Shown piece by piece: positions 2,669 through 38,666 of a stretch of DNA of 64,000 nucleotides. The stretch comes from Segetibacter sp. 3557_3. GTDB lineage: Bacteria > Bacteroidota > Bacteroidia > Chitinophagales > Chitinophagaceae. Where the stretch lies: contig NZ_SMSK01000002.1 in the NCBI RefSeq assembly GCF_004354985.1, positions 62,001 through 126,000 of the forward strand, given 5' to 3'. Within the stretch, counting starts at the first letter, position 1. Each line of letters begins with the position of its first letter. The translations under genes were made by a program, and so were the position numbers. The notes beneath the pieces are model-generated. The model saw only the letters and a program-made list of their open reading frames with translations, had not been told where the DNA came from and ran no database searches.

Positions 2669-2726
2669 TTTATGGGCCAGGCTGATGTTGTACTTTTGAC
2701 ATCGTTGCGTCGCACTCTTGTACTTT
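2669..2726 (+). repeat. Dispersed ~58 bp element, copy A
   Basis: One of four degenerate copies of an intergenic element in this window; the others are at 23451-23510 (-), 34617-34672 (+) and 38608-38666 (-). The right half contains GTTGCGTCGCACTCTTGTAC (2704-2723), which matches the copy at 38611-38630 exactly in inverse orientation. This copy sits just left of the 112 bp repeat array. It lacks the terminator-like T-tract seen at the left edge of the other three. Confidence 0.7.
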
Positions 2727-23213: not shown

Positions 23214-23236
23214 TCGGGATGTCGATTGTTTGAAAA

Positions 23237-23412
23237 GTTGATAGGTTGATTGGTTGAGAAGTTGAAAGGTTGATTGGTTGAGAAGTTGATAGGTTGATTG
23301 GTTGAGAAGTTGATAGGTTGATTGGTTGAGAAGTTGATAGGTTGATTGGTTGAGAAGTTGATAGGTTGATTAGTTGAGAAGTTGATAGGTTGATAGGTTG
23401 ATCAGTAGATAG
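23237..23412 (+). repeat. Octanucleotide tandem array, 22 units
   Basis: Strict 8-bp period throughout. Most units are GTTGA plus a three-base suffix; the dominant order is GTTGATAG-GTTGATTG-GTTGAGAA, giving a 24-bp super-repeat. Variants GTTGAAAG, GTTGATTA, GTTGATCA and GTAGATAG keep the phase. It lies just downstream of the GH28 stop codon. The same word family forms the array at 29753-29949. Confidence 0.95.
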
Positions 23413-23450
23413 GTAAATGCTTCTCAGTTGATTTGATGATCAGGGCGATG

Positions 23451-23510
23451 CACCTGAACGGAGCGTCGCAAGGATGTTCAACCAGGGAACAAATGCTGGT
23501 CACCAAAAAA
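23451..23510 (-). repeat. Dispersed ~58 bp element, copy D
   Basis: Read on the minus strand it starts TTTTTTGGTGACCAGCATTT and ends with CTTGCGACGCTCCGTTCAGG. It aligns best with the copy at 34617-34672. On the minus strand it follows a small GCCA/TGGC hairpin with a T-run (about 23505-23526). Confidence 0.65.
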
Positions 23511-23587
23511 GCCAGCTATGTGGCGAATGCCCTTGTTTGATGTTGGACTCGTGATGATTTGGCTGCTCTAAAAAAGCCGGGATAAAT

Positions 23588-25492
23588 ATGAAAAGATTAT
23601 TAACGATTGTTTGTTTGCTGCTTGCTATGCATAGCGTGCAGGCTCAGCCGGTATCGCAGAAAATGGCTGCTACGGTAATGACGCTATGGAAGGACTCTTT
23701 CTCGCTAACCCCGGGGCGTTCTGCCCGATGGTCGTACGACCAGGGTGTATTTTTAAAAGGCTTTGAAGGCATTTGGAAACGCACCGGTGATCCCAAATAC
23801 TTTGATTATATACAAAAAAGTATGGACTTTTTTGTTGATGAAAACGGCACGGTTAAAGGCTACCGGCCCGACGAATACAATATTGACCACGTAAATAATG
23901 CGCGCATTCTCCTGCTCCTTTTTCGTGTCACGGGCAAGGAAAAATATTGGAAAGCCGCTACCCACATGCGCAACCAGCTGCGGACCCATCCGCGTACGGC
24001 TGAAGGTGGTTTCTGGCACAAGCAGGTTTACCCACACCAGATGTGGCTTGATGGCCTGTACATGGGACAACCGTTTTATGCTGAGTATACCTACCTGACA
24101 AAAGATGATACCGCCTTTAATGATATCGCCAAACAGTTTATCCTGATGGAGAAACATGCCCGGGATGCAAAAACGGGTTTGTTGTACCATGGATGGGACG
24201 AATCAAAACAACAAAAGTGGGCGAACAAAGAAACCGGTGTGTCGCCAAACTTTTGGGCAAGGGCAATGGGTTGGTATGCTATGGGACTTGTAGACGTGCT
24301 GGATTATTTTCCTGAAAGTCATCCGAAACAAAAAGAACTCGTCGCCATTTTACAACGACTGGCTGCTGCAATTCAAAAAGTGCAGGATCCTAAAACCGGG
24401 GTTTGGTTCGACCTGCTTGACAAACCTACTCTTAAAGGCAACTACGTGGAAGCCTCTGCGTCCAGCATGTTTGTTTATGCCGTTGCGAAGGGTATTCGCA
24501 AAGGCTATCTAGCAGAAAACAACAGCGCCTGGTTAACAAAGGCCTATGATGGTCTGGTGAAACAATTTATAGTTCCGGCTGATAATGGCGGGGTAAACCT
24601 TAATGGCACCGTAACCGTATCAGGCCTTGGAGGTTCACCGAATTATCGCGATGGCAGTGATGCCTACTACCTTAGCGAAAGGGTTATACAAAACGATCCA
24701 AAAGGCATCGGTGCTTTTTTGCACGCGGCGAATGAAATGGAAATGCGTCCAAACCTTAAAATGGGTAAGGGCACCACCATACTGCTCGATAATTACTTTA
24801 ACAACGAAGTGAAAAAGGATATTACGGGCGACAATGTTAGCTGGCATTATACGTGGGACGAGATGAACCATGGCGGCTTTTCACTATTGGGTAACCTGTT
24901 CGAACAACACGGGGCAAAGCTCGCTACGCTAAAATCGGCACCAACCGCGGCAAATCTTAGGAATGCAGGGGTTTACATCATCGTTGATCCTGATACCCAA
25001 AAAGAAAGTCCAAGGCCGAACTACGTTCAGCCGGGAGATGTTACGGCAATCAGTGATTGGGTAAGGGCAGGAGGGATCCTTGCCCTGTTTTCAAACGACA
25101 GCAGTAATGCCGAGTTCACCCATTTTAATACCCTTGCAGAAAAATTTGGCTTTCGCTTTAATCCCGAACTTAAAAATCCGGTGATCAATAATCAATATGA
25201 GCAAGGGGCGATTGTTGTTGAGCCGGGTAATCCGGTATTTAAGACGGCAAAAAAGGTTTACATCAAAGAGTTGGCGAGCCTTAAAGTTGCCAAACCAACA
25301 GATGCTGGGTTGAAGCACAAAGGCGACAACATTGTTGCCGTAGTGAAATATGGTAAAGGCTGGGTGTTTGCTGTTGGCGATCCCTGGTTCTACAACGAAT
25401 ATATTGATGGACGAAAGCTGCCTGCGGAATATGAGAACTTCGCGGCGGCTTCGGATTTTGTAAAATGGGTTCTCAGTACTAAAAACAAGTAA
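23588..25492 (+). CDS. GH105 unsaturated rhamnogalacturonyl hydrolase with C-terminal extension
   Basis: 634 residues with a signal peptide (MKRLLTIVCLLLAMHSVQAQ). The GH105 (alpha/alpha)6-barrel (~25-385) has HQMWLDGLYMGQPFYAEY, with catalytic Asp155, and LYHGWDESKQQKWANKETG. It removes the unsaturated uronic acid left at the non-reducing end by lyases, so it works directly on the products of the PL1 and PL10 enzymes. GH105 proteins are usually ~370-400 residues; the extra ~240 residues contain NHGGFSLLGNLFEQHGA, YIIVDPDTQ, WVRAGGILALFSND and GKGWVFAVGDPWFYNEY, which look like a DUF4350/glutamine-amidotransferase-like fold of unknown role. It is 10 bp upstream of the PL10 gene, in one operon with it. 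Confidence 0.9.
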   Translation: MKRLLTIVCLLLAMHSVQAQPVSQKMAATVMTLWKDSFSLTPGRSARWSYDQGVFLKGFEGIWKRTGDPKYFDYIQKSMDFFVDENGTVKGYRPDEYNIDHVNNARILLLLFRVTGKEKYWKAATHMRNQLRTHPRTAEGGFWHKQVYPHQMWLDGLYMGQPFYAEYTYLTKDDTAFNDIAKQFILMEKHARDAKTGLLYHGWDESKQQKWANKETGVSPNFWARAMGWYAMGLVDVLDYFPESHPKQKELVAILQRLAAAIQKVQDPKTGVWFDLLDKPTLKGNYVEASASSMFVYAVAKGIRKGYLAENNSAWLTKAYDGLVKQFIVPADNGGVNLNGTVTVSGLGGSPNYRDGSDAYYLSERVIQNDPKGIGAFLHAANEMEMRPNLKMGKGTTILLDNYFNNEVKKDITGDNVSWHYTWDEMNHGGFSLLGNLFEQHGAKLATLKSAPTAANLRNAGVYIIVDPDTQKESPRPNYVQPGDVTAISDWVRAGGILALFSNDSSNAEFTHFNTLAEKFGFRFNPELKNPVINNQYEQGAIVVEPGNPVFKTAKKVYIKELASLKVAKPTDAGLKHKGDNIVAVVKYGKGWVFAVGDPWFYNEYIDGRKLPAEYENFAAASDFVKWVLSTKNK

Positions 25493-25502
25493 GCTTTCCA
25501 TT

Positions 25503-26549
25503 ATGATTAAACGTTTTTCACTACCCGGGATGATTGTTAAAGCAGGTTGCGTTATGCTTGCATTGGGTACCCTACAGCAAACCTCGGCGCAGGACATGCA
25601 GGCCGACAATATGTTGGTATACCAGCGCGCAATAGGTGGCTGGCCAAAGCACATCAACGAAGTAAAGATTGACTATACCAAGCCCCTGTTTGAAGAACAA
25701 AAGCTTGATTTACGCGCCGACTCGCTTAAGAAAGATGCCACCATAGACAATGGCGCAACCGTAAAAGAAATCCGCTACCTTGCCTCGGCCTTTAAAAAAC
25801 ACAACAACCCTGCATACCTGGCAGCTGCTGAAAAGGGGGTACGTTATTTACTGAAGGCTCAATATCCCATTGGCGGATGGCCACAGTTTTATCCTGACTC
25901 GAGCCTTTATCGTGGAGAGATCACCTTCAACGATAATGCAATGATCAACGTACTCGAGCTGATGCTGGATGTAAAAGGGGGCAAAAACGACCTGGAGGTT
26001 ATCAGCCGCACCCTCGTTCCCGGGTGTACGGCTGCGATTGAGAAAGGCATTAGCTGTATACTTCTAACACAAGTAAAGGTTAATGGAAAACTAACCGTTT
26101 GGTGCGCACAGTATGACCAGAAGACGCTTCAACCGGCAACCGCACGTAAGTATGAGTTGCCCTCGTTAAGTGGATCGGAAAGCGTTGCGATTACGCGGTT
26201 TCTCATGAAGGTTGAAAAACCTTCGGCGGCAATTAAAACGGCAGTGAAAAGTGCTGTTGAATGGTTTAACGCATCTAAGATAGAAGGATATAAGTTTGTG
26301 TCGGTTCCCGACCCTGCAGAGCCAAATGGAAGGGACAGAAAGTTGATTGCAGAACCCGGTGCGGTACTCTGGGCACGTTTTTACGACCTCGATACCAACG
26401 AACCATTTTTCTGTGGTCGCGACGGCATAAAAAAGAAACGGGTTTCAGAGATTGAATATGAGCGTAGAAATGGGTATGCCTGGTATGGCAACTGGCCTCA
26501 ACAATTATTAGAACAGGAATATCCCTCCTGGTTAAAGAAAAACGCATAA
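25503..26549 (+). CDS. Pectate lyase family PL10
   Basis: 348 residues with a signal peptide ending near TSAQD. PL10 hallmarks are present: QRAIGGWPKHI, the DNGAT motif, YPIGGWPQFYPDS, ITFNDNAM and a C-terminal RRNGYAWYGNWP. It cleaves polygalacturonate by beta-elimination with Ca2+ and a catalytic Arg. The length is that of a single-domain PL10, and it has no sorting domain, so it may act in the periplasm on imported oligomers. The gene lies 10 bp after GH105 and 1 bp before uxaB, linking the polymer-cutting and intracellular parts of the pathway in one transcript. Confidence 0.9.
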   Translation: MIKRFSLPGMIVKAGCVMLALGTLQQTSAQDMQADNMLVYQRAIGGWPKHINEVKIDYTKPLFEEQKLDLRADSLKKDATIDNGATVKEIRYLASAFKKHNNPAYLAAAEKGVRYLLKAQYPIGGWPQFYPDSSLYRGEITFNDNAMINVLELMLDVKGGKNDLEVISRTLVPGCTAAIEKGISCILLTQVKVNGKLTVWCAQYDQKTLQPATARKYELPSLSGSESVAITRFLMKVEKPSAAIKTAVKSAVEWFNASKIEGYKFVSVPDPAEPNGRDRKLIAEPGAVLWARFYDLDTNEPFFCGRDGIKKKRVSEIEYERRNGYAWYGNWPQQLLEQEYPSWLKKNA

Positions 26550-26550
26550 C

Positions 26551-28071
26551 ATGAACAACTTGTCTGTTTCCGCCTTAGCGCAGGTAATCGAAAATGATCG
26601 GCTGGTTAAGCCTTCACAATCCGTGTTTCAACTGCCGGAGAAGGTACTGCAGTTCGGCACCGGGGTACTTCTTCGTGGCCTGCCAGACTACTTCATCAAT
26701 AAAGCAAACAACCAGGGTGTTTTTAAAGGCCGTATCGTAGTGGTAAAATCAACCTCGCAGGGCGATACCAATGCGTTTGATACCCAGGACGGATTGTTTA
26801 CCCAGTGTATCAGGGGTCTTGAAAACGGCGAAAAGGTTGAGCAGAACATCATCAATGCAAGCATCAGCCGGGTACTGTCTGCAAAAGAGCAGTGGAACGA
26901 AATTCTTGAATGTGCTGCAAACCCCAACATGGAGGTGATCATCTCCAATACAACCGAAGTTGGCATCAGTCTCGTTAAAGAAGATAAAATTGATGCCGCT
27001 CCACCGGTATCATTTCCTGGTAAACTGCTGGCTTTTTTATACCACCGTTACAAAGCGTTCAATGGTGATCCATCAAAAGGGGTAGTGATTGTGCCTACTG
27101 AGCTGATCGTTGATAATGGTGCAAAGCTTGAAGCGATTGTACTGGAGCTGGCGCACCTGAATGGTGTTGACCCGGCCTTCATGGATTGGCTGGAAAGCTC
27201 TAATCATTTTTGTAATTCACTGGTCGACCGGATTGTTCCGGGCAAATTACCCGAAGCTGATAAAGCCGTTTTTTTGCAGGAATACGGGGTAAACGACGAC
27301 CTGATGATCATGAGTGAAACGTATAGCCTATGGGCAATTGAAGCCAATGATCCCGTGGTGAGCGAAAAACTTTCATTTTATAAAGTGGACAAAGGTGTGG
27401 TTATCGCCCCCGACATCAACAAGTTTCGCGAACTGAAATTGCGATTGCTGAACGGTACCCATACTTACAGCTGCGGACTGGCGCATCTTGCCGGTTTCAC
27501 CATAGTGAAGGAAGCGATGGAAGACGACGAATACAGGGGTTATGTATTGCAATTGATGTTAAATGAAATTGCCCCGGCCATTACCAATGACGAGATCACT
27601 TATGACGAAGCAAAGGAGTTTGCGGAGAAAGTAGTTGACCGTTTCAGGAACCCTTTCATCGAACATAAATGGTTAAGCATCTCGGTACAATATTCTTCTA
27701 AAATGAAGATGCGTAACGTGCCGGTATTGATAAAACATTATGAGCGCAACCAGCAGGTACCTGAGCTGATGGCGATCGGCTTTGCGGCTTACATCAGGTT
27801 CATGAATTGCATTGAAACAGATGGCAAATTTGTAGGCGAAGCAAATGGGGAAGCATACAATATACAGGACGATCATGCCGGTTGGTTTGCCGAACGAAGC
27901 AGCCTTAACGCTGGTGCGATTGTAGAAGAAGTTTTAAAAAATGAGGCCTACTGGGATGTTGACCTCACCAAATTACCCGGTTTTGCGGCAGCTGTAGAAA
28001 ACTGGTATGGACAACTTGTTGCCGGCCGGGTGAAAGACGTTATCAGAGAAAGTCATTCCGTAAAAGCTTAG
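26551..28071 (+). CDS. uxaB: Tagaturonate reductase (altronate oxidoreductase)
   Basis: 506 residues of cytoplasmic mannitol dehydrogenase-family protein. The N-terminal Rossmann region has VLQFGTGVLLRGLPDYFINKA, and the signature LRLLNGTHTYSCGLAHLAGF is in the C-terminal catalytic half. It reduces D-tagaturonate to D-altronate with NADH, the second step of galacturonate catabolism after UxaC. It follows the PL10 gene by 1 bp and is 11 bp ahead of uxaA, so the three are surely co-transcribed. The length matches family members of ~480-500 residues. Confidence 0.94.
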   Translation: MNNLSVSALAQVIENDRLVKPSQSVFQLPEKVLQFGTGVLLRGLPDYFINKANNQGVFKGRIVVVKSTSQGDTNAFDTQDGLFTQCIRGLENGEKVEQNIINASISRVLSAKEQWNEILECAANPNMEVIISNTTEVGISLVKEDKIDAAPPVSFPGKLLAFLYHRYKAFNGDPSKGVVIVPTELIVDNGAKLEAIVLELAHLNGVDPAFMDWLESSNHFCNSLVDRIVPGKLPEADKAVFLQEYGVNDDLMIMSETYSLWAIEANDPVVSEKLSFYKVDKGVVIAPDINKFRELKLRLLNGTHTYSCGLAHLAGFTIVKEAMEDDEYRGYVLQLMLNEIAPAITNDEITYDEAKEFAEKVVDRFRNPFIEHKWLSISVQYSSKMKMRNVPVLIKHYERNQQVPELMAIGFAAYIRFMNCIETDGKFVGEANGEAYNIQDDHAGWFAERSSLNAGAIVEEVLKNEAYWDVDLTKLPGFAAAVENWYGQLVAGRVKDVIRESHSVKA

Positions 28072-28082
28072 AACAACTGATC

Positions 28083-29735
28083 ATGAAAAAAAGCATTTTA
28101 AAAGTTCATCCTGACGATAACATTATCGTCGCTTTACGCAACCTTACGAAAGGTGAAGAAGTAAAAATGGACGGGCAAACGTATACAGTAACTGAAGATA
28201 TTCCGGCAAAGCACAAATTCACCGAAACCGACATGCAGGCGGGCGACAGCCTAACAATGTACGGGGTGCTTGTTGGAAAGGCACAAATGCATATACCTGC
28301 CGGTGCGCGCATTTCTACGTCAAACGTAAAACATGCATCCACGGGTTTTGAACTGGGAAGTCGCAAAACAGCTTGGCATGTTCCCGACGTGTCGAAATTT
28401 AAAACCAGGACCTTCAAAGGATATCACCGCAGCGACGGCAGTGTAGGTACAGCAAATCATTGGCTCGTTATACCCCTCGTGTTTTGTGAAAACAGGAACA
28501 TCGATGTATTAAAAGACACCCTGTTGGATGAGCTTGGTTTTTCAAGGCCTAAAAAATACAACGACTTTGCAAAGCAGTTAAAGAAGCTGTATACCTCAGG
28601 CAAAACCGTTCAGGATATTTTGAACGCCGAGTTCAAGGAAAGCGATGAGTCGGAGAAGAAAGACCGGCTATTTAAAAACATAGACGGGGTAAAGTTTATC
28701 ACCCACGAAGGCGGCTGTGGTGGAACCCGCCAGGATGCCCAGGCGCTTTGCGGCTTGCTTGCAGGTTATATCACCCATCCCAATGTGGCTGGTGCAACTG
28801 TGCTTAGCCTTGGATGCCAGAACGCACAGATTGCCATGCTTGAGGAAGAAATTGCAAAGCGTTCGCCCGCGTTCGACAAACCACTTTATATTCTCGAGCA
28901 ACAACGTATCGGTAGCGAAACCGATCTCATTTCAGCCGCACTCAAACAAACTTTTGCGGGACTGATCCAGGCCAACCAGCTTGAACGCCAGCCGGCACCC
29001 ATCAGCAAACTTTGTATCGGCCTGGAGTGCGGTGGTTCCGATGGCTTTTCAGGCATTTCCGCCAACCCGGCCATCGGGTATACGAGCGACTTGCTTGTAG
29101 CTGCAGGAGGCTCTGTTATTCTCTCCGAATTTCCGGAGTTGTGTGGGGTTGAGCAGGAGATGAGCGACCGTTGTGTGGATGAAAGCAAGGCACTTCGGTT
29201 TATCGATATCATGCGCCGGTATGGGCAACGTGCGAAAGACGCGGGTTCAGGTTTCGATATGAATCCATCACCTGGCAACATCAAAGACGGACTGATCACC
29301 GATGCCATCAAGTCGGCTGGTGCGGCAAAAAAAGCGGGGACCTCGCCTGTTGTTGATGTGTTGGATTATCCGGAAAAAGTGAGCAAGCCGGGTTTGAACC
29401 TGTTGTGTACACCGGGTAATGATGTTGAGTCGACTACCGCCGAAGTTGGTGCAGGCGCAAACATTGTGCTTTTCACTACCGGTCTTGGAACACCAACCGG
29501 CAACCCCGTGGCACCCGTGCTAAAAGTATCGAGCAATACGATCCTTTACAACAAGATGCGCGACATCATTGATATTAATACCGGAACCATCATCGAAGGA
29601 GAAGAAACCATCGAGGAAGCCGGGGAACGCATACTCGACCACGTGATTAAAGTAGCGAGCGGCGAAGTGGAGGCCCTATCTGTAAAAAACGGGCATGAAG
29701 ACTTCATTCCGTGGAAACGGGGGGTTAGTTTGTAA
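28083..29735 (+). CDS. uxaA: Altronate dehydratase
   Basis: 550 residues. A short SAF-like N-terminal domain (~1-95, starting MKKSILKVHPDDNIIVAL) is joined to the large UxaA/GarD-type catalytic domain. Signatures are GYHRSDGSVGTANHWLVIP, THEGGCGGTRQDAQALCGLL, LSLGCQNAQ and LCIGLECGGSDGFSGISANP. The Cys/His residues in these are expected to bind the catalytic metal. It dehydrates D-altronate to 2-keto-3-deoxy-D-gluconate. It is the last gene of the GH105-PL10-uxaB-uxaA run; 17 bp after its stop an 8-bp tandem array begins. Confidence 0.95.
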   Translation: MKKSILKVHPDDNIIVALRNLTKGEEVKMDGQTYTVTEDIPAKHKFTETDMQAGDSLTMYGVLVGKAQMHIPAGARISTSNVKHASTGFELGSRKTAWHVPDVSKFKTRTFKGYHRSDGSVGTANHWLVIPLVFCENRNIDVLKDTLLDELGFSRPKKYNDFAKQLKKLYTSGKTVQDILNAEFKESDESEKKDRLFKNIDGVKFITHEGGCGGTRQDAQALCGLLAGYITHPNVAGATVLSLGCQNAQIAMLEEEIAKRSPAFDKPLYILEQQRIGSETDLISAALKQTFAGLIQANQLERQPAPISKLCIGLECGGSDGFSGISANPAIGYTSDLLVAAGGSVILSEFPELCGVEQEMSDRCVDESKALRFIDIMRRYGQRAKDAGSGFDMNPSPGNIKDGLITDAIKSAGAAKKAGTSPVVDVLDYPEKVSKPGLNLLCTPGNDVESTTAEVGAGANIVLFTTGLGTPTGNPVAPVLKVSSNTILYNKMRDIIDINTGTIIEGEETIEEAGERILDHVIKVASGEVEALSVKNGHEDFIPWKRGVSL

Positions 29736-29752
29736 GTGGGTATTGGGTATTG

Positions 29753-29949
29753 GTTGACTGGTTGATAAGTTGATAGGTTGACTGGTTGATTGGTTGAGAA
29801 GTTGATTGGTTGACTGGTTGATTGGTAGATTGGTTGACTGGTTGATTGGTTGAGAAGTTGATTGGTTGACTGGTTGAGAAGTTGACTCGTTGATTGGTTG
29901 ATAAGTGATCAGTTGACTGGTTGATATGTTGATTGGTTGAAGTTGATTT
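29753..29949 (+). repeat. Octanucleotide tandem array, about 24 units
   Basis: Units of GTTGA plus suffix (CTG, ATT-type TTG, TAA, TAG, GAA, CTC, TAT) keep a strict 8-bp phase from 29753 to 29904. One 7-bp unit (GTGATCA, 905-911) then shifts the phase, three more octamers follow, and the last units are irregular. GTTGACTG and GTTGATTG dominate. It is the same word family as at 23237, with a richer suffix vocabulary. It lies 18 bp after the uxaA stop. Confidence 0.95.
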
Positions 29950-30020
29950 ATTCATTGGCCAGGAAGCAGATGGGTTGCCGTGCTATGGAGATTGCGTTGA
30001 TAAATCAACATATGATTTTG

Positions 30021-30187
30021 ACAAAACAACCGGGGCGGACTAAAAATCACGTCTCATAACTCATCTCTCATAACTCATAACTCATCACTCATCTCTCATA
30101 ACTCATCACTAATTTCTCATCACTCTGAACTCATAACTCTAAACTCATAACTCCTACCTCCTCACTCTTAATTCATAACTTTTAACT
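30021..30187 (+). repeat. Conserved head plus 19-unit heptanucleotide array in the uxaC leader
   Basis: The head ACAAAAC...CGGACTAAAAATCACGTCT (30021-30054) is followed by 19 seven-base units from 30055 to 30187 (133 bp) in perfect phase: mostly CATAACT, CATCACT and CATCTCT, later CTGAACT, CTAAACT, CCTACCT, CTTAATT. The array stops 5 bp before the uxaC ATG. The same head (ACAAAACCGACTAAACATCA, then CGTCT) and the same heptamers occur on the minus strand directly before yhcH (38403-38553), again with 19 units. Confidence 0.93.
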
Positions 30188-30192
30188 GCAAT

Positions 30193-31635
30193 ATGAAGCG
30201 ATTTCTTGACGAAAACTTTCTGCTGAAGACCAGGACTGCGCAGAAGCTTTACCACGATTATGCGAAAGAGATGCCCATAATCGACTATCACTGCCACCTG
30301 CCACCAGCGCAGATTGCGGCTGATCAACAGTTTGAAAACCTCACCCAGGTGTGGCTTTACGGCGACCATTATAAGTGGCGTGCGATGCGGGCAAATGGTG
30401 TAGACGAGAGCTATTGTACCGGTGATAAACCTGACTTTGAGAAATTTCAGAAATGGGCCGAAACCGTGCCGTATACACTGCGTAACCCGCTGTATCATTG
30501 GACCCATCTTGAACTTCAGCGCTATTTTGGGATCGACCAGATTCTAAATGGCGATACTGCCAAAAGCATATACGACGAATGTACCGCCAAACTGCAGACA
30601 CCCGAGTATTCCGTTCGTAACCTGCTCCGTAAATTGAACGTCAGGCTGGTTTGTACCACCGACGACCCTGTCGACAACCTGGAGTACCATCAACAAATAA
30701 AAGATGACGGGTTTGAGATCCCCATTCTCCCGGCGTTCAGACCAGACAATGCAATGAACGTTGACAATACACAAAACTTTAATGGTTACGTTCAACGCCT
30801 TGAAACTGCGGCAAACGTGTCCATCGGTTCCTTCCAGCAGTACCTCGATGCGCTGAAATCGCGGCATGAGTATTTTGCGGCGAATGGCTGTAGTGTTTCC
30901 GATCATGGGCTCGAAGAGATCTATGCCGAAGATTATACAACAGCGGAAATTGCCGGGCTGTTTGACAAAGTTCGTGCAGGTAACGACCTAAACGATATCG
31001 AGAAACGCCGCTTTAAATCGGCTATGCTGGTGCAGTTTGCCGAATGGGATTGGGAAAAAGGCTGGGTGCAACAATACCATCTGGGTGCTTTGCGCAACAA
31101 CAATTCACGCATGCTGCGCAAACTTGGTCCGGATACCGGTTGGGATTCTATCGGCGACTTTTCGCAGGGCAGATCCCTTTCGAAATTCCTCAGCCGGCTT
31201 GAAGGCGAAGACAAACTCACCAAAACAATCCTGTACAACCTCAATCCTGCTGATAATGAATTGATGGCAACCATGATCGGCAACTTCAACGATGGCTCTG
31301 TTGCGGGAAAGATTCAATTTGGATCTGCCTGGTGGTTCCTTGATCAGAAAGATGGCATGACAAGGCAGATTAATGCCCTTTCGAACATGGGCCTGCTAAG
31401 CCGTTTTATCGGTATGCTTACCGATAGCCGGAGCTTTCTATCATTCCCGCGCCACGAGTATTTCCGCCGCTTGATCTGCGACCTTTTTGGCGAGGAAATG
31501 GAAAATGGTGAATTGCCAAACGATATAGAATGGGTTGGAAAAGTGATCCAGGATATTTGCTTCAACAACGCTAAAAACTACTTCAACTGGCAGCAATTAA
31601 ATTCCGAAAAAGCGGTTCTGACGAAAGCCCGGTAG
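30193..31635 (+). CDS. uxaC: Glucuronate/galacturonate isomerase
   Basis: 480 residues of cytoplasmic enzyme in the amidohydrolase superfamily. It converts D-galacturonate to D-tagaturonate (and glucuronate to fructuronate), the entry step of this pathway. Visible are the metal-binding motif IIDYHCHLPP (His33, His35), LYGDHYKWRAMRANGV, WTHLELQRYFGI, CTTDDP and GSAWWFLDQKDGM. The length agrees with the usual ~470. The leader is the heptanucleotide array described at 30021. A further heptamer run follows immediately after the stop codon. Confidence 0.95.
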   Translation: MKRFLDENFLLKTRTAQKLYHDYAKEMPIIDYHCHLPPAQIAADQQFENLTQVWLYGDHYKWRAMRANGVDESYCTGDKPDFEKFQKWAETVPYTLRNPLYHWTHLELQRYFGIDQILNGDTAKSIYDECTAKLQTPEYSVRNLLRKLNVRLVCTTDDPVDNLEYHQQIKDDGFEIPILPAFRPDNAMNVDNTQNFNGYVQRLETAANVSIGSFQQYLDALKSRHEYFAANGCSVSDHGLEEIYAEDYTTAEIAGLFDKVRAGNDLNDIEKRRFKSAMLVQFAEWDWEKGWVQQYHLGALRNNNSRMLRKLGPDTGWDSIGDFSQGRSLSKFLSRLEGEDKLTKTILYNLNPADNELMATMIGNFNDGSVAGKIQFGSAWWFLDQKDGMTRQINALSNMGLLSRFIGMLTDSRSFLSFPRHEYFRRLICDLFGEEMENGELPNDIEWVGKVIQDICFNNAKNYFNWQQLNSEKAVLTKAR

Positions 31636-31640
31636 TAACG

Positions 31641-31710
31641 CATAAGTAATAATGCATAATGGATAACTCATAATTCATCACGCTGAATTCATAATTCATC
31701 ACTCAAAACT
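31641..31710 (+). repeat. Heptanucleotide array, 10 units, upstream of the aldehyde dehydrogenase
   Basis: Starts 5 bp after the uxaC stop: CATAAGT, AATAATG, CATAATG, GATAACT, CATAATT, CATCACG, CTGAATT, CATAATT, CATCACT, CAAAACT, all in 7-bp phase. A 31-bp CAACTA-rich stretch leads to the next ATG at 31742. The conserved head seen with the other two arrays is absent here. Confidence 0.85.
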
Positions 31711-31741
31711 CACCAACTACTAACACACAACCAACTAACTA

Positions 31742-33367
31742 ATGACTTTTACCGAAGAACTCGATAAAATTTTTGTTACCGAAGAAGAGATACCTGAAAA
31801 GTTTAACCTGACGGAAGAAGTACACCAGCGCACTTACCTGAGCAATGGTGAAATGAAAACCTGGAAAGGCAGTGTACATGAGGTTTATTCCCCGGTTTGT
31901 ATCAGAACTGAAGAAGGATTAAAAAGAAGGTTAATCGGCACCTACCCGGTTTGTACCGAACAGGAAGCCTTTGAAGCCTTAGACGCGGCAATCGCTGCAT
32001 ACGACAATGGCCGTGGCAAATGGCCCACCATGAGTGTTGCCGACCGGATTACCTGTGTAGAAAACTTTACCAAAAAGATGCTTGAACAAAAAGACATCGT
32101 GGTTAAGTTGCTCATGTGGGAGATCGGGAAATCTTACGCCGATTCGGTAAAGGAGTTCGACCGAACAGTCGAATACATCTATGCCACCATAGATGCATTG
32201 AAAGATATCGACCGGCAGTCATCCCGCTTTGAAATTGAGCAGGGAATTGTTGCACAGGTACGTCGTTCACCGCTTGGAGTTGTACTGTGTATGGGCCCTT
32301 TTAACTACCCGCTTAATGAAACGTTTACAACCCTTATTCCTGCAATTATCATGGGGAATACCCTATTGTTTAAACCTCCGAAACACGGTACGTTATTACA
32401 CTTTCCTTTGCTGGAGGCATTCCGCGACAGTTTTCCAAAAGGGGTTGTCAACACCATTTATGGTCGCGGGCATACGATTGTTCCCGGCCTGATGCAGTCG
32501 GGTAAGATCAACGTGCTTACCCTGATTGGTTCGAGTAAAGTTGCAAACGAACTGAAGAAGTTGCACCCTAAGGTTAACCGCCTTCGCGCCATCCTCGGTC
32601 TCGATGCAAAAAATGCAGCCATCGTTACCAAAAATGCCGACATATCACTGGCGGTTCAGGAAACCGTACTGGGCTCATTATCCTTCAACGGTCAACGTTG
32701 TACTGCACTAAAGATCATTTTTGTACATAAGAATATTGCTCGCGAGTTCCTGCACCAACTAAAAGAGGCTGTAGCCAAATTGAAGTATGGTATGCCTTGG
32801 GAACCAAATGTTGCCCTAACCCCATTGCCTGAACCACATAAGCCCGCATACCTGCAGGAGATTATCGAAGATGCCAGGCAGCACGGTGCCGAGGTTATCA
32901 ATGAAAATGGGGGAGCAACCGTTGCTTCGTTTGTTTACCCTGCAATTGTGTTCCCGGTAAACGAGAAAATGAAGTTGTACAGGGAAGAACAATTCGGGCC
33001 CGTGATACCAGTTGTGCCCTACGAGAGCCTTGAAGAACCGATTCAATACCTGATCGAGTCGCCGCATGGTCAACAGGTAAGTATCTTCAGCAGCAACAGT
33101 GATGAGGTAGCTACATCAATTGACGAGTTGGTTAACCAGGTAAGCCGGGTTAACATCAACTGCCAGTGCCAGCGAGGTCCCGATGTATTTCCCTTTACCG
33201 GCCGTAAAGACAGTGCTGAAGGAACCCTTTCAGTTGTGGATGCACTGCGTTCATTTTCTATCCGGTCGCTGGTTGCCACAAAACTGAACGACAACAATAA
33301 GCACCTGCTCAACGAGATTATCAACGGGCATGAGTCGAATTTCTTAAGCACCAAGTTTATCTTTTAA
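31742..33367 (+). CDS. GapN-like aldehyde dehydrogenase (probable NADP-dependent glyceraldehyde-3-phosphate dehydrogenase)
   Basis: 541-residue aldehyde dehydrogenase superfamily protein. The cofactor region has GVVLCMGPFNYPLNETFTTL and NTLLFKPPKHG; the catalytic cysteine is Cys320 in SFNGQRCTALK; a late motif is EEQFGPVIPVVPYE. Family members of this subgroup oxidise glyceraldehyde-3-phosphate directly to 3-phosphoglycerate, which would use the aldolase product of Eda. Oddly, the usual ELGGK motif reads LGLDAK (285-290). The position 34 residues before the Cys, where the general-base Glu normally sits, is Gly286, with Asp288 two residues later. The gene overlaps the following KDG kinase by 1 bp. 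Another aldehyde substrate, such as a ketoglutarate semialdehyde, is possible. Confidence 0.82.
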   Translation: MTFTEELDKIFVTEEEIPEKFNLTEEVHQRTYLSNGEMKTWKGSVHEVYSPVCIRTEEGLKRRLIGTYPVCTEQEAFEALDAAIAAYDNGRGKWPTMSVADRITCVENFTKKMLEQKDIVVKLLMWEIGKSYADSVKEFDRTVEYIYATIDALKDIDRQSSRFEIEQGIVAQVRRSPLGVVLCMGPFNYPLNETFTTLIPAIIMGNTLLFKPPKHGTLLHFPLLEAFRDSFPKGVVNTIYGRGHTIVPGLMQSGKINVLTLIGSSKVANELKKLHPKVNRLRAILGLDAKNAAIVTKNADISLAVQETVLGSLSFNGQRCTALKIIFVHKNIAREFLHQLKEAVAKLKYGMPWEPNVALTPLPEPHKPAYLQEIIEDARQHGAEVINENGGATVASFVYPAIVFPVNEKMKLYREEQFGPVIPVVPYESLEEPIQYLIESPHGQQVSIFSSNSDEVATSIDELVNQVSRVNINCQCQRGPDVFPFTGRKDSAEGTLSVVDALRSFSIRSLVATKLNDNNKHLLNEIINGHESNFLSTKFIF

Positions 33368-34377
33368 TGAAAAAGATTTTTTGTTTCGGCGAACTGTTGC
33401 TTCGTTTGTCGCCTTCGGCAAACGAGGACCTTGCAGAGCAACCCATGTTGGTATACGTGGGTGGCGCCGAAGCAAACGTCGCCACCGCTTTGGCAGGCTG
33501 GAATGTTCCGGTAAAGTATTGTACCGTGTTACCCGACAATTTTATGTCGCGGCACATGATACAATACCTCGAATACAAGGGCATCTATACTTCTTCGATT
33601 TTATTCGCCGGAAAACGTATCGGGATTTACTATCTCGAACGCGGATCCGACCTGAAAGGAAGCGTTGTTTATGATCGCGAGCATTCCTCTTTTTCAGAAT
33701 TAAAACGTGGTATGATCGATTGGGACAAGGTGTTCCAGGACGTATCATGGTTTAATCTTTCGGCAATTACCCCGGCCTTAAACGCCAATCTTGCCGATGT
33801 ATGTTTAGAGGCGCTTGAAGCCGCTTCGAAAAAAGATATCACCATATCACTTGATCTGAATTACCGTTCAAGGTTATGGCAATACGGTAAACAGCCGGTT
33901 GAGGTTATGCCTCAACTGGCTGAATATTGTGATGTGCTCATGGGCAATATCTGGTCGGCAAATACCCTGTTGGGAATACCCGTCGACGAGCACGTCCATG
34001 ATCATAAAAGCAAACAGGCTTACCTCGATCATGCAAAAGCTACCTCAATTGAAATCGTAAATAAATTCCCCCGTTGTAAAACGGTTGCAAACACGTTCAG
34101 GTTCGATAACCCGGAAAGTGAACTTCAGTACTATACTAGCCTTTATATGAACGGCGAGCAATACGAGTCACCGGAATTTTCAGCAACCTGCGTAGTTGAT
34201 CGTTCAGGCAGTGGGGATTGTTTCATGGCTGGCCTCATCTATGGGATAAGTAAAGCGCACGCCCCGCAAGACATCATCAATTATGCTGCAGCTGCAGCCT
34301 TTGGTAAACTCCAGGAGCTTGGAGACGCAACCGGCCAGGATCGCCTTACGATCTATAAATTAGAAAAGGGCCAGTAA
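33367..34377 (+). CDS. kdgK: 2-keto-3-deoxygluconate kinase (PfkB family), copy 1
   Basis: 336 residues. PfkB signatures: GGAEANVATALAGW near the N-terminus and the ATP/anion-hole motif DRSGSGDCFMAGLIYG near the C-terminus, with the catalytic Asp in GSGD. It should phosphorylate KDG to KDPG. Translation is probably coupled to the aldehyde dehydrogenase (TAATG overlap). A second kinase is encoded at 38739 with a more canonical DRVGSGDSFASG. This copy is the more divergent of the two, so a different sugar acid cannot be excluded. Confidence 0.85.
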   Translation: MKKIFCFGELLLRLSPSANEDLAEQPMLVYVGGAEANVATALAGWNVPVKYCTVLPDNFMSRHMIQYLEYKGIYTSSILFAGKRIGIYYLERGSDLKGSVVYDREHSSFSELKRGMIDWDKVFQDVSWFNLSAITPALNANLADVCLEALEAASKKDITISLDLNYRSRLWQYGKQPVEVMPQLAEYCDVLMGNIWSANTLLGIPVDEHVHDHKSKQAYLDHAKATSIEIVNKFPRCKTVANTFRFDNPESELQYYTSLYMNGEQYESPEFSATCVVDRSGSGDCFMAGLIYGISKAHAPQDIINYAAAAAFGKLQELGDATGQDRLTIYKLEKGQ

Positions 34378-34580
34378 CCTGTGTTCTGGTTTTTGCTTCA
34401 TCAACCCGCTCATTTGTTACCCATAAACTCGTAGCCAGGATCTTCCGGTAAGCGCATTACAGGCCAACAATTTCGATTTTAATAGTATTGTCATTTGCCA
34501 GGCGACATACTGCTATCGCCAGCTTAGGTGCCGGACCGGACTTTACTGCTAACATTTAACAAGGATTACTTTTTAATGCT

Positions 34581-34612
34581 GCCCTGCCGGAAAATGGTGG
34601 GGCTTTTTTGTT
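34581..34612 (+). terminator. Probable intrinsic terminator
   Basis: GCCCTGCC/GGTGGGGC stem with two G-T pairs and a GGAAAAT-type loop, followed by TTTTTTGTTTTT. It is 200 bp after the kinase stop, so the kinase transcript would have a long 3' tail or the terminator serves another RNA. Confidence 0.6.
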
Positions 34613-34616
34613 TTTC

Positions 34617-34672
34617 TTTTGGTAGCCAGCATTTGTTCACGTGGCGACATCGTTGCTACGCTCAGTTCAACG
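34617..34672 (+). repeat. Dispersed ~58 bp element, copy C
   Basis: TTTTGGTAGCCAGCATTTGT ... GACATCGTTGCTACGCTCAG, followed by TTCAACGG. It begins directly in the T-tract of the hairpin at 34581 and is the closest relative of copy D (23451-23510). Confidence 0.65.
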
Positions 34673-35099
34673 GCATAGCATTGAGGATCGGTTTGGTGTA
34701 AACCCTCGAAACGGAAACCAGGAGTCTGCACAATGGTTAAAGGCCAGGTTGCTTCGTTTGCAAGCCGGATTAGCAAAGCTGCGTGCTGCTTTGCACGCAT
34801 ATACGAACATACCGGTCAGCAGTAATGCAACCTGGTTTATCAAATCACAGCTACGATCATCTGCGGCGGCAACCAATAAATAACGCGGCTACCATTTCGT
34901 TCCGACTTTCGAGCATTCTATGTTGTGTTTAGCGCCGTTCATTCCCTACTACATATTTGTGCGATTGAACAGGCGGCGGTTGTTTGCATTTTTTGCATTC
35001 GGTTAACAGTTGAGCATAAAGGGTAATGATACCCGCACTATGGTACCAGCTGCAAAACCGGTAAAAAAATAAAGCAAACAAAACATAACAAACACAACG

Positions 35100-36758
35100 A
35101 TGAAAAAGAATGCGCTTTTAAAAGCATTTACTATTGCGACCACAGTTTTAATCTTCTCTTGTAAAAAGGAAAATATTCCCGATCCGCCGCCAACACCTCC
35201 CGATACTCCCACTGAAGCAAAACGTCCGTTGGGTTACGAAGGCGACGATAACATGGGTAAAATACCAACCACACCAAATGTTGGTTACGATGACGGCAAC
35301 CTTCCTTCACAGGTTGACCTTAGTGCTAAGTTTCCACCCATCGGCGACCAGGGACAATACGGAACCTGCGTTGCATGGGCGACCGCATACAACCTGAAAA
35401 CAGCGCTCAATGGAATAGATAAGGGCTATACTGCTTCGCAACTTGCTTCACCGGCAAACCAGGCAAGTCCCAGGGATTTGTTTACCGCAATCCCCGATAA
35501 TCAAAAAGGGTCCGATTGTAATGGTACCAATTTCAGCTTCGCACTCGATGTACTGCAAAACCGCGGGGTCGCATCGCTGCAAACCGTTCCGTATACCTCG
35601 CTGAGTAATTGTTCACAATCCGGTGTTCAATCCAGTTGGACAAACGAAGCAAAAAACAACAAGATTAAATATTGGAGAAAAATAAGTGCAACGGTAAAGG
35701 ATATCAAAAAGAATATTGCCAACAATATCCCGGTGTTACTTGCAGCAAAACTCTCCGACAACTTTATGACCTGGAACACTGATAATGTGCTGAGCTCAAA
35801 TACCACTTATAACACCGTTGGCCAGCATGCTTACCATGCCCTGGTGATCGCAGGTTATGATGATAACAAAGGTGGCAGGGGTGCATTTAAGATCATTAAT
35901 TCATGGGGTAAATACTGGGGTAGCAAAGGATACATCTGGGTGGATTATAACTTCCTGATCAATGAATTTTGTACGACACCCGATGGTGACAAACCGCTCT
36001 TCATTGCTTCTAATGACGCGGGTAGTGTTAATCCTCCAAACCCGAATCCATCAACGTCTGGCGTCGATTTAGCACCATGGGTATTTTCAGATGAGTCGGC
36101 ATATGCAGGTAGTGGAAATCCGCTAAAGCGTAAGATCAACTACAACTTCTATAATATCGGCAACCAGGCTGCTTCATCAAGTACAAACTGGTCGGTGTAT
36201 TATATCTACTTTAATGCTTATGATGCAAACGACTATGGTGTGTTGTTTTATGACGACTTTAATACCACTACTGCGTCCAACACATTTTATTGTCCTAATT
36301 CAGGAAACTGTGTTTTCAATTACAGCATTCCTGCAGGTGGTGATTTTGCAACAACCGTTTTCAAGTCGGAAGAGATTGTCAGGAACTACTATATGCCTAA
36401 GATTACCGGTGATTACTATCTGTTGCTGGTTACTGATGCTGAAGACAAATTTGCTGAAGAGGATGAACTGAATAACCTGTTTTATACTTCCCTTTGGCCG
36501 ACCACATTCAATAATGGTTATGCCGATCGCGGGCAAGGTGCATCCACGTTCCAGTTTAAAAATGAACTCCGTTTCAACAAGCAGAACATTAAGAAAAACA
36601 AGTTCAATACGGTTGTAACATCTGAATTCAGAAACGCTTATACCCCTGGTGAAATAATGTCTTTCTTTAAGAAGGAGAAAAAGAGCGGTGCTCTTGAAGC
36701 GAAGATCAACCGGTACATCCAGGACAATGGAAAAGATACCTACACGAAAGAAAAATAA
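35100..36758 (+). CDS. Papain-like (C1A) cysteine protease lipoprotein
   Basis: 552 residues. A lipoprotein signal with a lipobox at VLIFSC (Cys21) is followed by a Pro-rich linker and a C1 peptidase domain (~65-300). The oxyanion Gln85 and nucleophile Cys90 are in IGDQGQYGTCVAWATAYNL, His246 is in HAYHALVIAGYDD, and Asn267 is in IINSWGKYWGSKGYIW, so the triad is complete. After a second Pro/Asn linker comes a C-terminal ~200-residue CARDB-like beta-sandwich (VDLAPWVFSDESAYAG ... NNLFYTSLWP) and a Lys-rich tail. It is probably attached to the outer membrane. The target is unknown, and no inhibitor or partner is encoded next to it. A terminator follows. Confidence 0.85.
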   Translation: MKKNALLKAFTIATTVLIFSCKKENIPDPPPTPPDTPTEAKRPLGYEGDDNMGKIPTTPNVGYDDGNLPSQVDLSAKFPPIGDQGQYGTCVAWATAYNLKTALNGIDKGYTASQLASPANQASPRDLFTAIPDNQKGSDCNGTNFSFALDVLQNRGVASLQTVPYTSLSNCSQSGVQSSWTNEAKNNKIKYWRKISATVKDIKKNIANNIPVLLAAKLSDNFMTWNTDNVLSSNTTYNTVGQHAYHALVIAGYDDNKGGRGAFKIINSWGKYWGSKGYIWVDYNFLINEFCTTPDGDKPLFIASNDAGSVNPPNPNPSTSGVDLAPWVFSDESAYAGSGNPLKRKINYNFYNIGNQAASSSTNWSVYYIYFNAYDANDYGVLFYDDFNTTTASNTFYCPNSGNCVFNYSIPAGGDFATTVFKSEEIVRNYYMPKITGDYYLLLVTDAEDKFAEEDELNNLFYTSLWPTTFNNGYADRGQGASTFQFKNELRFNKQNIKKNKFNTVVTSEFRNAYTPGEIMSFFKKEKKSGALEAKINRYIQDNGKDTYTKEK

Positions 36759-36768
36759 TTAACATCAT

Positions 36769-36803
36769 AGGGCTGCCTTCATATGAGGCAGCCCTCTTTT
36801 CTT
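36769..36803 (+). terminator. Intrinsic terminator after the protease gene
   Basis: Perfect 9-bp stem AGGGCTGCC/GGCAGCCCT with a 9-nt loop, then CTTTTCTT. Confidence 0.85.
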
Positions 36804-36867
36804 CACAATTGTACAATAGCTAATCGTTTTTAGAAACAAATCATCAACCAATCAAACACCAGGTAAC

Positions 36868-37776
36868 ATGAAATATTATTTCCTTGGCTTCCTTATTCTC
36901 TTGGTTACTTTTTGCGCATCAAAAAAGGATACACAAACACAAAATAAAGGTGATATGAAGGAGTCGCTCCGTACAGGCAAAGACATCTTTATCGAAAATC
37001 GTGTATTTACCGAAGAGTTGGATATCACGAAATTGCTCGACCCCAATTTGGTTAGTGATGGTATTTACCAGGTGAAAACATCGTCGTCGGTTACCTTCAA
37101 AAATTGCAGGTTCGAAGGAAAGGTCAAGGCGTTTAGCAACCAACAGGACTCCCGGGTTACCAGTACTGCTTTCCTGAGTAATGTTTCTTTCATTCAGTGC
37201 ATCTTTAACAATGAAGTAAACTTCAGGAGCAGCAGCATAATGGGCACCGCTGATTTTACAAAATCAACTTTTAATAAGGTTGCCAATTTCGAAGAATGTA
37301 CGTTTCTGCAGAATGCATATTTTAATGGTTGTACGTTTAATGATGACGTTCGGTTTCAGAACGCTTTTTTTACCAAACGTGCTAATCTTATGAACACTCA
37401 ATTCAATAAGGCCAGCAGCTTTCAAAATACTACGTTTAACTCAGAGGTTCAATTCAGCGTAGGTAAGTTTCGCGACTATGCCGACTTCTCGCTGAGTAAG
37501 TTTAACGACAATGCCTTTTTTAATTATTGTGACTTCAGCAAAAATGCCAGCTTCAACAGTTCGCATTTTTCACGCGGGGTTGATTTTCTAAATGTCAACT
37601 TTAATAACACCGAATTTAAGGGTTGTTCATTTTACGGGGATACCCGCTTTTTTCAATCGGCTGTACAGTCAAAGATGGATTTTGAGAATACCTTTTTTTT
37701 GTTTGGTACACCGGATCTTAGTTTTATTGCAGCACAAAAAGTTAACCTGGCCAACCTGAAGAAAATCCGTCATTAA
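36868..37776 (+). CDS. Lipoprotein with pentapeptide-type repeats
   Basis: 302 residues. The lipoprotein signal has lipobox LVTFC (Cys16). From about residue 70 the chain repeats short units with Phe at every fifth position or so (for example ANFEECTFLQNAYFNGCTF and ADFSLSKFNDNAFFNYCDF), the pattern of pentapeptide-repeat right-handed beta-helices. About 25 units are visible. The end (SFIAAQKVNLANLKKIRH) leaves the repeat pattern. No enzymatic motif is seen, so the function is unknown. It is transcribed alone, convergent with yhcH across a bidirectional terminator. Confidence 0.8.
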   Translation: MKYYFLGFLILLVTFCASKKDTQTQNKGDMKESLRTGKDIFIENRVFTEELDITKLLDPNLVSDGIYQVKTSSSVTFKNCRFEGKVKAFSNQQDSRVTSTAFLSNVSFIQCIFNNEVNFRSSSIMGTADFTKSTFNKVANFEECTFLQNAYFNGCTFNDDVRFQNAFFTKRANLMNTQFNKASSFQNTTFNSEVQFSVGKFRDYADFSLSKFNDNAFFNYCDFSKNASFNSSHFSRGVDFLNVNFNNTEFKGCSFYGDTRFFQSAVQSKMDFENTFFLFGTPDLSFIAAQKVNLANLKKIRH

Positions 37777-37902
37777 ACCAATATTGCGATCTCGAACAGT
37801 GGATCGAAAAAGGACGCCCGCTGATTTTGGATGGTACCATTTCGAAGTTCAACCAAATGCTCGTAATAATTGCTAAACCTGTTTGCTAATACTGCTATAA
37901 AT

Positions 37903-37935
37903 AAAAAGAGGCGCCGAATACCGGCGCCTCTTTTT
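37903..37935. terminator. Bidirectional terminator between convergent genes
   Basis: AAAAAGAGGCGCCG/CGGCGCCTCTTTTT, with A-run and T-run on opposite sides, so it can end transcription from both the lipoprotein gene (+) and yhcH (-). Confidence 0.9.
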
Positions 37936-37949
37936 ATTGTAATGCAATG

Positions 37950-38402
37950 CTAGATCTTAACCTTAATGACCAGCTTTTTGATCGGGTCCTCACCGATCAT
38001 TGGTGCATGAACATCTTCCGGGTAAAATATCGCGAATTGGTTATCGGTTAATTTGAAAAACATATCCGGAGCATCACTGTAAAACACCACATCTTTTTCA
38101 GGGTTGTATTCACCTTTTTGTGCCGTGCAACTGCTCCTTGGCTTCCAGCCAAATTGCTCTATTCCTTTTATCACTACCTGGATGTCGATGTGTTTGTCGT
38201 GACACTCGAATTTAGCTATCGACTCTGCAATGGTCATTCCTTCTTTGTTGGATACGATTGCCCGAAGAGACGTTCCTGCTACTTCGTATTTGCCATCTTC
38301 AAGGTTTGCAAGATCGAGTGAACCAATGTATTCAAAGGCCTGCTGAAAATCGGGGTGCAGGCTGTTGTATTGGTCCGAGTTGGTGAGGCTGTCTATGATC
38401 AT
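37950..38402 (-). CDS. YhcH/YjgK/YiaL family protein
   Basis: 150 residues, the family's normal length, of a cupin-like fold. Recognisable parts are ESIAKFECHDKHIDIQVVIKG, with the metal-binding-type His/Glu residues, and IFYPEDVHAPMIGEDPIKKLVIKV. Members are often encoded with sugar-acid or sialic-acid catabolic genes and are suspected isomerases or mutarotases, but the activity is uncertain. The ATG directly abuts a 19-unit heptanucleotide array with the same head as in front of uxaC, which argues for shared control with galacturonate catabolism. Confidence 0.88.
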   Translation of the reverse strand: MIIDSLTNSDQYNSLHPDFQQAFEYIGSLDLANLEDGKYEVAGTSLRAIVSNKEGMTIAESIAKFECHDKHIDIQVVIKGIEQFGWKPRSSCTAQKGEYNPEKDVVFYSDAPDMFFKLTDNQFAIFYPEDVHAPMIGEDPIKKLVIKVKI

Positions 38403-38553
38403 GTTTATGAGTTAATCGTGATGAGTTAAGAGTGATGAGTTATGAATTAAGAGTGATGAGTTATGAATTCAGAATGATGAGTTATGAGTTTTGAATTACG
38501 AGTGATGAGTGATGAGATATGAGTGAGGAGACGTGATGTTTAGTCGGTTTTGT
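38403..38553 (-). repeat. Conserved head plus 19-unit heptanucleotide array in the yhcH leader
   Basis: On the minus strand the order is head ACAAAACCGACTAAACATCA-CGTCT (38553-38529, its last heptamer CACGTCT in phase), then CCTCACT, CATATCT, CATCACT, CATCACT, CGTAATT, CAAAACT, CATAACT, CATCATT, CTGAATT and so on. It ends CATAAAC immediately before the ATG. 38403-38535 is exactly 133 bp, 19 x 7. The vocabulary and head match the uxaC leader at 30021-30187. Confidence 0.93.
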
Positions 38554-38607: not shown

Positions 38608-38666
38608 AATGTACAAGAGTGCGACGCAACGGCTGCTGCTATGAAAAGCAAATGCCGGGTCCAAAA
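38608..38666 (-). repeat. Dispersed ~58 bp element, copy B
   Basis: On the minus strand it reads TTTTGGACCCGGCATTTGCT ... GTTGCGTCGCACTCTTGTAC. It begins in the T-tract of the terminator that ends the second kinase gene (38664-38701). The last 20 bases are identical to copy A at 2704-2723. Confidence 0.7.

Follow-up and report, generated by a model that had tools for sequence, protein, structure and literature searches.

Heptad arrays before uxaC and yhcH of Segetibacter sp. 3557_3, probably belonging to a population of 7- and 8-bp word arrays in intergenic spacers

The uronate gene cluster and its arrays

The DNA analysed here, called the window, is a stretch of 64,000 nucleotides from Segetibacter sp. 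3557_3 (contig NZ_SMSK01000002.1, positions 62,001 to 126,000), taken from a genome of 6.75 Mb in 35 contigs. Its middle part carries genes for uronate catabolism, among which are uxaC and yhcH, and several arrays of short tandem words in the spacers between them. The features that concern us are the following (window positions):

23224 to 23414, plus strand: 8/24-bp array of GTTGATTG type, a member of the same population, 10 bp past the stop codon of the gene at 21573-23213
28083 to 29735, plus strand: uxaA-like altronate dehydratase (Pfam PF20629/PF04295)
about 29741 to 29940, plus strand: array of 8-bp words of ATTGGTTG type, at the opposite end of the uxaC spacer
30037 to 30055, plus strand: head of the uxaC array (GGACTAAAAATCACGTCTC), one of 45 genomic CACGTCTCAT sites, with the conserved core TCACGTCTC
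30055 to 30187, plus strand: CTCATNA-type heptad array of uxaC, 19 in-phase units
30193 to 31635, plus strand: uxaC, glucuronate isomerase (Pfam PF02614, 2e-208)
31641 to 31715, plus strand: third CTCAT-type array, shorter and without a head, upstream of the aldehyde dehydrogenase gene
31742 to 33367, plus strand: aldehyde dehydrogenase gene (Pfam)
37950 to 38402, minus strand: yhcH (YhcH/YjgK/YiaL family, Pfam PF04074)
38403 to 38528, minus strand: CTCATNA-type heptad array of yhcH, 18 in-phase units, ending at the start codon
38528 to 38546, minus strand: head of the yhcH array (CGACTAAACATCACGTCTC)
38611 to 38630, minus strand: copy of a dispersed 20-bp motif (GTTGCGTCGCACTCTTGTAC), in the interval from the upstream gene to the yhcH array

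The leaders of uxaC and yhcH have the same build, as had been described from the sequence at the outset: a common head, ACTAAAMATCACGTCTC, is followed by a phase-perfect array of heptads. At uxaC, 19 consecutive units (133 bp) are followed by GCAAT and by the ATG at 30193; at yhcH, 18 units (126 bp, same register), running from 38528 to 38403 on the minus strand, directly abut the ATG at 38402. The count of exactly 19 units given in the preliminary description holds for uxaC and not for yhcH. The uxaC array contains 1 G in 133 nt and the yhcH array 3 G in 126 nt, and both GGG and CCC are absent from the two. In the third array, the CTCAT-type part (31667-31715) lies within a period-7 stretch that starts at 31641, and the array of ATTGGTTG type starts at most 15 bp from the stop codon of the uxaA-like gene. 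The assignment of a PfkB kinase in the cluster is also backed by Pfam, and the closest titled relatives of uxaC are found in Paraflavitalea (79%) and a Niastella MAG (78%). Five arrays of 7- or 8-bp words lie within about 15 kb around the uronate genes (23224-38530), denser than in the genome sample described below, in the very region where the finding was picked, so that this density is not a fair test.

Neither array is a recent copy of the other, in agreement with the earlier reading, since their likeness does not exceed what shuffled units give (z 1.3, rank 222 of 351 array pairs). Among 12 lag tests on the self-similarity of the arrays, the yhcH array showed extra similarity at a lag of three units (21 bp; P=0.0024, uncorrected for the 12 tests), and the other 11 gave P>0.05. 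The constancy of the 7-bp phase had been taken as an argument against strand slippage; this argument does not stand, since slippage by whole 7-bp units preserves the phase.

Word arrays in intergenic spacers and their relation to leaders

Across the whole genome, four consecutive CTCATNA units with at most 2 mismatches gave 38 overlapping matches, versus 0 for the reversed pattern, and CACGTCTCAT gave 45 sites versus 8 for its reversed control, confirming that the heads are alike beyond chance. We then considered 38 CTCATNA clusters, namely those in the regions fetched around pattern matches (selected by word and not by orientation, and not a whole-genome census). All 38 are intergenic; the head is present in 24 and absent from 14. 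Among the 36 clusters with a called downstream gene, 26 face the stop codon of an opposite-strand gene and only 10 a start codon (15 and 9 for the 24 headed clusters), and the expected preference of the copies for 5' leaders is therefore not found. Just three of the 38 clusters reach to within 30 bp of a start codon; they are all inside the window, and the two of them that carry a head are those of uxaC and yhcH. The leader position at these two genes is therefore an exception, and the interpretation of the arrays as leaders is mostly not supported.

The CTCATNA arrays are part of a larger set. A sample that we call unbiased (1.184 Mb, made of 56 stretches at round coordinates plus the window itself) contained 13 intergenic arrays of period 7, one more inside a gene, and 17 arrays of period 8; at periods 4, 5, 6, 9, 10, 11 and 13 it contained none and at period 12 one, while the arrays at periods 14 and 15 (10 and 7) are multiples or sums. 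Markov controls gave no array of period 7 or 8. Genes were called with a home-made codon-score script, whose start positions are approximate. In the same sample, 26 of 27 clusters are intergenic, and the nearest gene edge is a stop codon for 20 and a start codon for 6 (18 and 3 when the window is left out). None of the 23 clusters in typed spacers lies between divergent genes, though such spacers make up 22% of the spacer bases, and convergent spacers, with 15% of the bases, hold 10 of the 23. Laxer detectors show this avoidance less strongly: divergent spacers account for 2 of 28 spacers with one and for 14 of 156 arrays with another. Arrays within genes numbered 0 here with one laxer detector, 2 of 25 in genome G053, 2 of 11 in genome G144 and 2 of 16 at public Bacteroidota loci.

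The words are many within one genome: CTCATNA, GTTGANNN, TGTTGNA, AAAAGTN, GGTATTNA (whose words contain GGG) and AATCCGCC all form arrays, and GTTGA arrays alone account for 591 overlapping matches versus 91 for the reversed pattern. At the public loci, 15 arrays have period 7 and 4 have period 8, with 1, 1, 1, 4 and 2 arrays at periods 6, 9, 10, 11 and 12. A separate spacer of this genome (contig C11, 1218432-1218760) contains about 300 nt behind a stop codon that, judged by eye, have almost no C on the gene strand and are filled with GTTGA and GGTATTGA words.

The arrays at the two focal genes are patchily distributed in relatives. No CTCAT array was found in the 200 nt before the uxaC start at any of 88 other loci (8 congeners and 80 public loci, which may overlap and represent at most 87 genomes, two loci, L086 and L088, being from the same one); five of the 88 carry a different 7- or 8-bp array in the leader. 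A close yhcH occurs in five of nine congeners (56-59% identity). A short C-rich heptad array stands directly before it in G001 (P=0.000) and G006 (P=0.020), with a borderline case in G005 (0.056), and no period-7 array was detected before yhcH in G002 or G004, the latter giving P=0.028 at period 8. The arrays of G001 and G006 comprise about 5-6 units, versus 18 here, and an alignment of G000 with G001, G006, G005 and G002 shows a longer array here and a head in addition. For this reason, the long yhcH array probably represents the expansion of an older short array to which a head was added. CTCATNA matches occur in three of nine congeners (5 matches) and in 36 of 147 family genomes; the reversed-pattern control, clean here, is not clean in all relatives (113 matches in G100, for example), where other words abound.

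These data bear on the possibility that the nearly G-free, unstructured array serves as a standby or protein-binding leader (for S1, Csp or similar, one protein per heptad) of uxaC, the aldehyde dehydrogenase gene and yhcH. Within 8.5 kb, three genes of a single uronate cluster do have an array in front of them, both leaders are predicted to be mostly unpaired in their array parts, which hold hardly any G, heptad arrays recur before yhcH in two of the five congeners and, at the borderline, in a third, array-free leaders of this genome are themselves richer in C than in G near start codons, and translational regulation by a leader has been proposed for the TAACTGA heptads of Beggiatoaceae in PMC4679880. 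Against it, the head-bearing clusters situated at most 30 bp ahead of a start codon number just 2 of 24, the CTCAT array is missing from all of the other 88 uxaC leaders, and the predicted folding lies within the range of dinucleotide shuffles (z 0.71 and 0.11), so that the lack of leader structure comes down to composition. Taken together, we regard regulation of this kind as unlikely, and the results call for caution against the view that uxaC and yhcH share a regulatory leader in the form of these arrays. The array as a structured RNA was also discarded, the folds being no different from those of shuffles; at the gathering threshold, Rfam returned only a tRNA within the window.

Orientation of the arrays at gene edges

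Each word turns one particular end towards the gene edge. Of the array ends located at most 100 bp from an edge, 100 keep this rule and 13 break it (75:9 at stop codons, 25:4 at start codons). The word orientations behind these counts were picked per word after seeing examples, and the comparison was repeated in a word-blind form, in which the strand that leads away from the nearest gene edge was scored as G>C or C>G within 100 bp. In all regions fetched from this genome, the ratio was 31:7 at stop edges (P=1e-4) and 15:0 at start edges (P=6e-5), and for arrays more than 100 bp from an edge it was 11:11 and 9:3. The unbiased sample alone gave 13:6 and 4:0, which is not significant (P=0.17 and 0.125), and 13:6 and 3:0 without the window. 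The outward strand is thus mostly G-rich and C-poor in the pooled data, irrespective of the direction of the gene. G053 (11:2 stop, 6:1 start), G144 (6:0 and 3:0) and the 80 public Bacteroidota loci (4:1 and 7:0) point in the same direction, small samples by themselves not being significant. Part of the polarity at start edges is ordinary, because array-free leaders are already C>G near start codons; array-free stop edges show little skew. No statement of such a rule across words and genomes was present among the matches listed in the open-access literature.

A track of out-of-frame stop codons was considered as the cause of the polarity and rejected, as the same polarity is seen at start edges. 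The density of stop codons behind genes is in fact higher on the strand of the ending gene (9.9 vs 6.3 per 100 nt; higher in 19 of 26 arrays and lower in 6).

One alternative that would make use of this polarity is a transcription guard at gene edges. A Rho loading (rut) region is C-rich and G-poor, which the inward strand of the arrays resembles, and the arrays would stop spacer transcription from entering genes. The polarity does follow the gene edge and not the gene direction, and convergent spacers are rich in arrays, as given above. However, words such as TTAAAAA and AAAAGTC are not C-rich on the inward strand, and at start edges a guard would block its own gene, which makes this reading rather improbable.

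A broader idea is that a directional DNA process, common to Bacteroidota and, judging by the published layout, Xanthomonas, would write words of 7-8 nt into intergenic spacers from the gene edge outward, with the G-rich strand outward, to which quadruplexes, leader regulation and gene direction would be secondary; we put it forward as a speculation that is unlikely to hold. Candidates for this process are the extension of DNA ends at breaks, fold-back copying from one spacer edge to the other, and selection that favours a Rho-like guard where genes border on spacers. Whatever its cause, the polarity at gene edges is a simple, countable rule that can be applied to any genome.

Origin of the arrays, related repeats and an accompanying motif

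The head lies on a fixed side of the arrays. In the scanned regions, 85 YRCGTCTC sites were found; a CTCAT array lies only downstream of 44, only upstream of 2, on both sides of 1 and on neither side of 38, which gives some support to a repeat family with a fixed left end. The core TCACGTCTC is conserved, the ACTAAA part varies between heads, and the sequence left of the head differs widely among copies. The proposal that the head is a promoter was dropped upon inspection: the Bacteroidota -7 box is TAnnTTTG, TAAAAATC and TAAACATC fit it poorly, and TAAA is missing from many other heads.

The fixed side of the head is what would be expected if a discrete mobile element, its left end fixed, had been inserted at many sites, and this part of the earlier suggestion has some support. 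A longer left flank, judged by eye, is common to L016, L033 and L034, and the unit is missing from the uxaC leaders of congeners. The element itself finds less in its favour, as 14 of 38 clusters have no head, the sequence to the left of the head is so variable, nothing like a right end was seen beside this left head, and other words are placed likewise without this head, no CACGTCTCAT being present in the regions fetched from G053 or G144. We regard a mobile element as improbable. In an observation apart, a spacer of a Chitinophagaceae MAG (L065, 12233-12400) holds an inverted GTGAGGC/GCCTCAC heptad pair containing CACGTCT, the same letters as the head core.

Partners within one spacer were sought with a single cut-off (z>=4, score>=15). 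A direct partner was found for 60 of 97 arrays here, where pieces of one interrupted array are counted too, and an inverted partner for 4 of 97 here, 10 of 16 in G053, 1 of 6 in G144 and 5 of 15 at public loci, partners not all having been checked by eye. C3 arrays align with z up to 14.6, which indicates local copying. Directional addition at broken DNA ends, by telomerase-like or fold-back synthesis that would extend 3' ends outward with short templated words before joining, agrees with the outward polarity whatever the gene direction, with arrays that often begin at the gene edge, with the inverted pairs of G053 and with a telomerase-like bacterial reverse transcriptase making tandem-repeat DNA (described in PMC12632851), but it is very improbable here, its telomerase-like form being weakened because no RVT_1 (PF00078) reverse transcriptase was found in the genome (controls positive in 3 of 14) and inverted partners being so few among the arrays of this genome. 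In five G053 spacers (L310 13990, L309 5005, L310 5048, L316 5038 and L318 4028), a heptad array, a short centre and an inverted array form long imperfect hairpins, which begin at or near a gene edge, in four cases a stop codon.

Heptanucleotide tandem repeats of the STRR type occur in many copies in heterocystous cyanobacteria; the arrays described here are likewise heptanucleotide tandem repeats in many copies, and they differ from STRR in sequence and host. A closer likeness is offered by the heptameric repeats of Xanthomonas (GGGAATC/GGGANTN) and Nostoc (GGGGA(T/C)T), which, according to PMC4692102, are 89-93% intergenic with 7-8% between divergent genes, lie 28 nt from the 5' neighbouring ORF versus 160 nt from the downstream one, and include 70-75 inverted pairs, the long repeats being at different genes in two species. 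On our own reading, these distances would amount to a G-strand that points outward. The arrays here share with the Xanthomonas repeats the tandem 7-bp units with variable inner positions, the intergenic location with few arrays between divergent genes, the lack of conservation at orthologous genes and, if our reading of those distances is right, a G-rich strand directed away from the nearest ORF, a trend that is not significant in our unbiased subset. They differ in that the uxaC and yhcH arrays are without GGG or CCC and thus form no quadruplex of that kind, in the many words per genome, in the period of 8 besides 7, in the head on one word family and in the Bacteroidota host. The 70-75 inverted pairs of PMC4692102 compare with the 4 of 97 arrays here, with the larger shares in G053 and at public loci, and with 1 of 6 in G144.

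The TAACTGA direct repeats described in PMC4679880 are found in Beggiatoaceae, Cyanobacteria and five Bacteroidetes, and their indels between two Cyanothece strains are mostly in steps of 7 nt. They too are heptads, mostly intergenic, lineage-specific and, in some Bacteroidetes, mixed with other heptamers. In the Beggiatoaceae genome studied there, these sets mostly precede start codons and have a strict word, whereas the arrays here stand mostly after stops and have a degenerate word; among our clusters, 10 of 36 point towards a start and 3 of 38 come within 30 bp of one. Among the matches listed in the open-access literature, no paper deals with arrays of this kind in Chitinophagaceae, and none concerns, by title or abstract start, the six DNA strings that were searched. 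PMC4692102 and PMC4679880 treat bacterial heptamers case by case, with quadruplexes in Xanthomonas and translational regulation in Beggiatoaceae. The arrays described here resemble the published layout of the Xanthomonas GGGAATC heptads and would be a further form of heptameric intergenic repeats. A similar layout, with words of a single G that mostly have no start codon behind them, directs attention to the origin of such repeats and not to what one word binds.

Considering all of this, the uxaC and yhcH arrays probably belong to a population of degenerate arrays, built of 7- or 8-bp words in intergenic spacers, that grew by whole-unit slippage and copying. CTCATNA would be one word family among such spacer arrays, often reaching up to the gene edge, here and in other Bacteroidota. 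Arrays would grow and shrink in whole units through slippage or unequal exchange, blocks of head and array would be copied locally and between spacers, and purifying selection would clear arrays from genes and disfavour them in divergent promoter regions, which may be why most of them lie behind stop codons. The position before a start codon would then be incidental in most cases, including uxaC. The short yhcH arrays of congeners next to the 18 units here, and the higher-order similarity at 21 bp, are consistent with growth in whole units; the other words found at uxaC and yhcH in relatives, and the patchy occurrence, are consistent with membership in a population. We infer that slippage and copying are the generator and that the arrays are without function; a by-product of DNA copying is a likelier account of them than a special switch for control. 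The outward polarity is not predicted by plain slippage, the head shared by 24 clusters is left unexplained by slippage unless some copying mechanism is added, and slippage does not account for the inverted pairs of G053 or for the heptad arrays of congeners at the same yhcH place.

The 20-bp motif near the yhcH array is a dispersed repeat of its own, GTTGYGTCRCWCHCTTGTAC, with two main linked forms, GTTGCGTCGCAC.. and GTTGTGTCACTC.., and it lies in the window at 2704-2723 (plus strand) and 38611-38630 (minus strand). It has 202 copies here, 336 in the congener G001, 1045 in G061 and 520 in G066; the reversed control gives 0. Of 97 family genomes, 41 contain it. In the unbiased sample, 39 of 40 copies are intergenic and the remaining one is at a sequence end. 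The copy before yhcH is kept in G001, G006 and G002 and is degenerate in G005. As a candidate structured RNA the motif was set aside, since RNAalifold on 32 copies predicts no pairs; it has no Rfam match in the window. A motif copy is present at a distance of 500 bp or less from 7 of 26 arrays, versus 2.3 expected (P=0.011). Downstream of one motif copy, window positions 2787-4729 contain a 113-bp unit that has a GGGATTGCTTCCTTCGTCGCAATGACG core and is present in about 17 copies, with heptads of the TTCATAG type between them.
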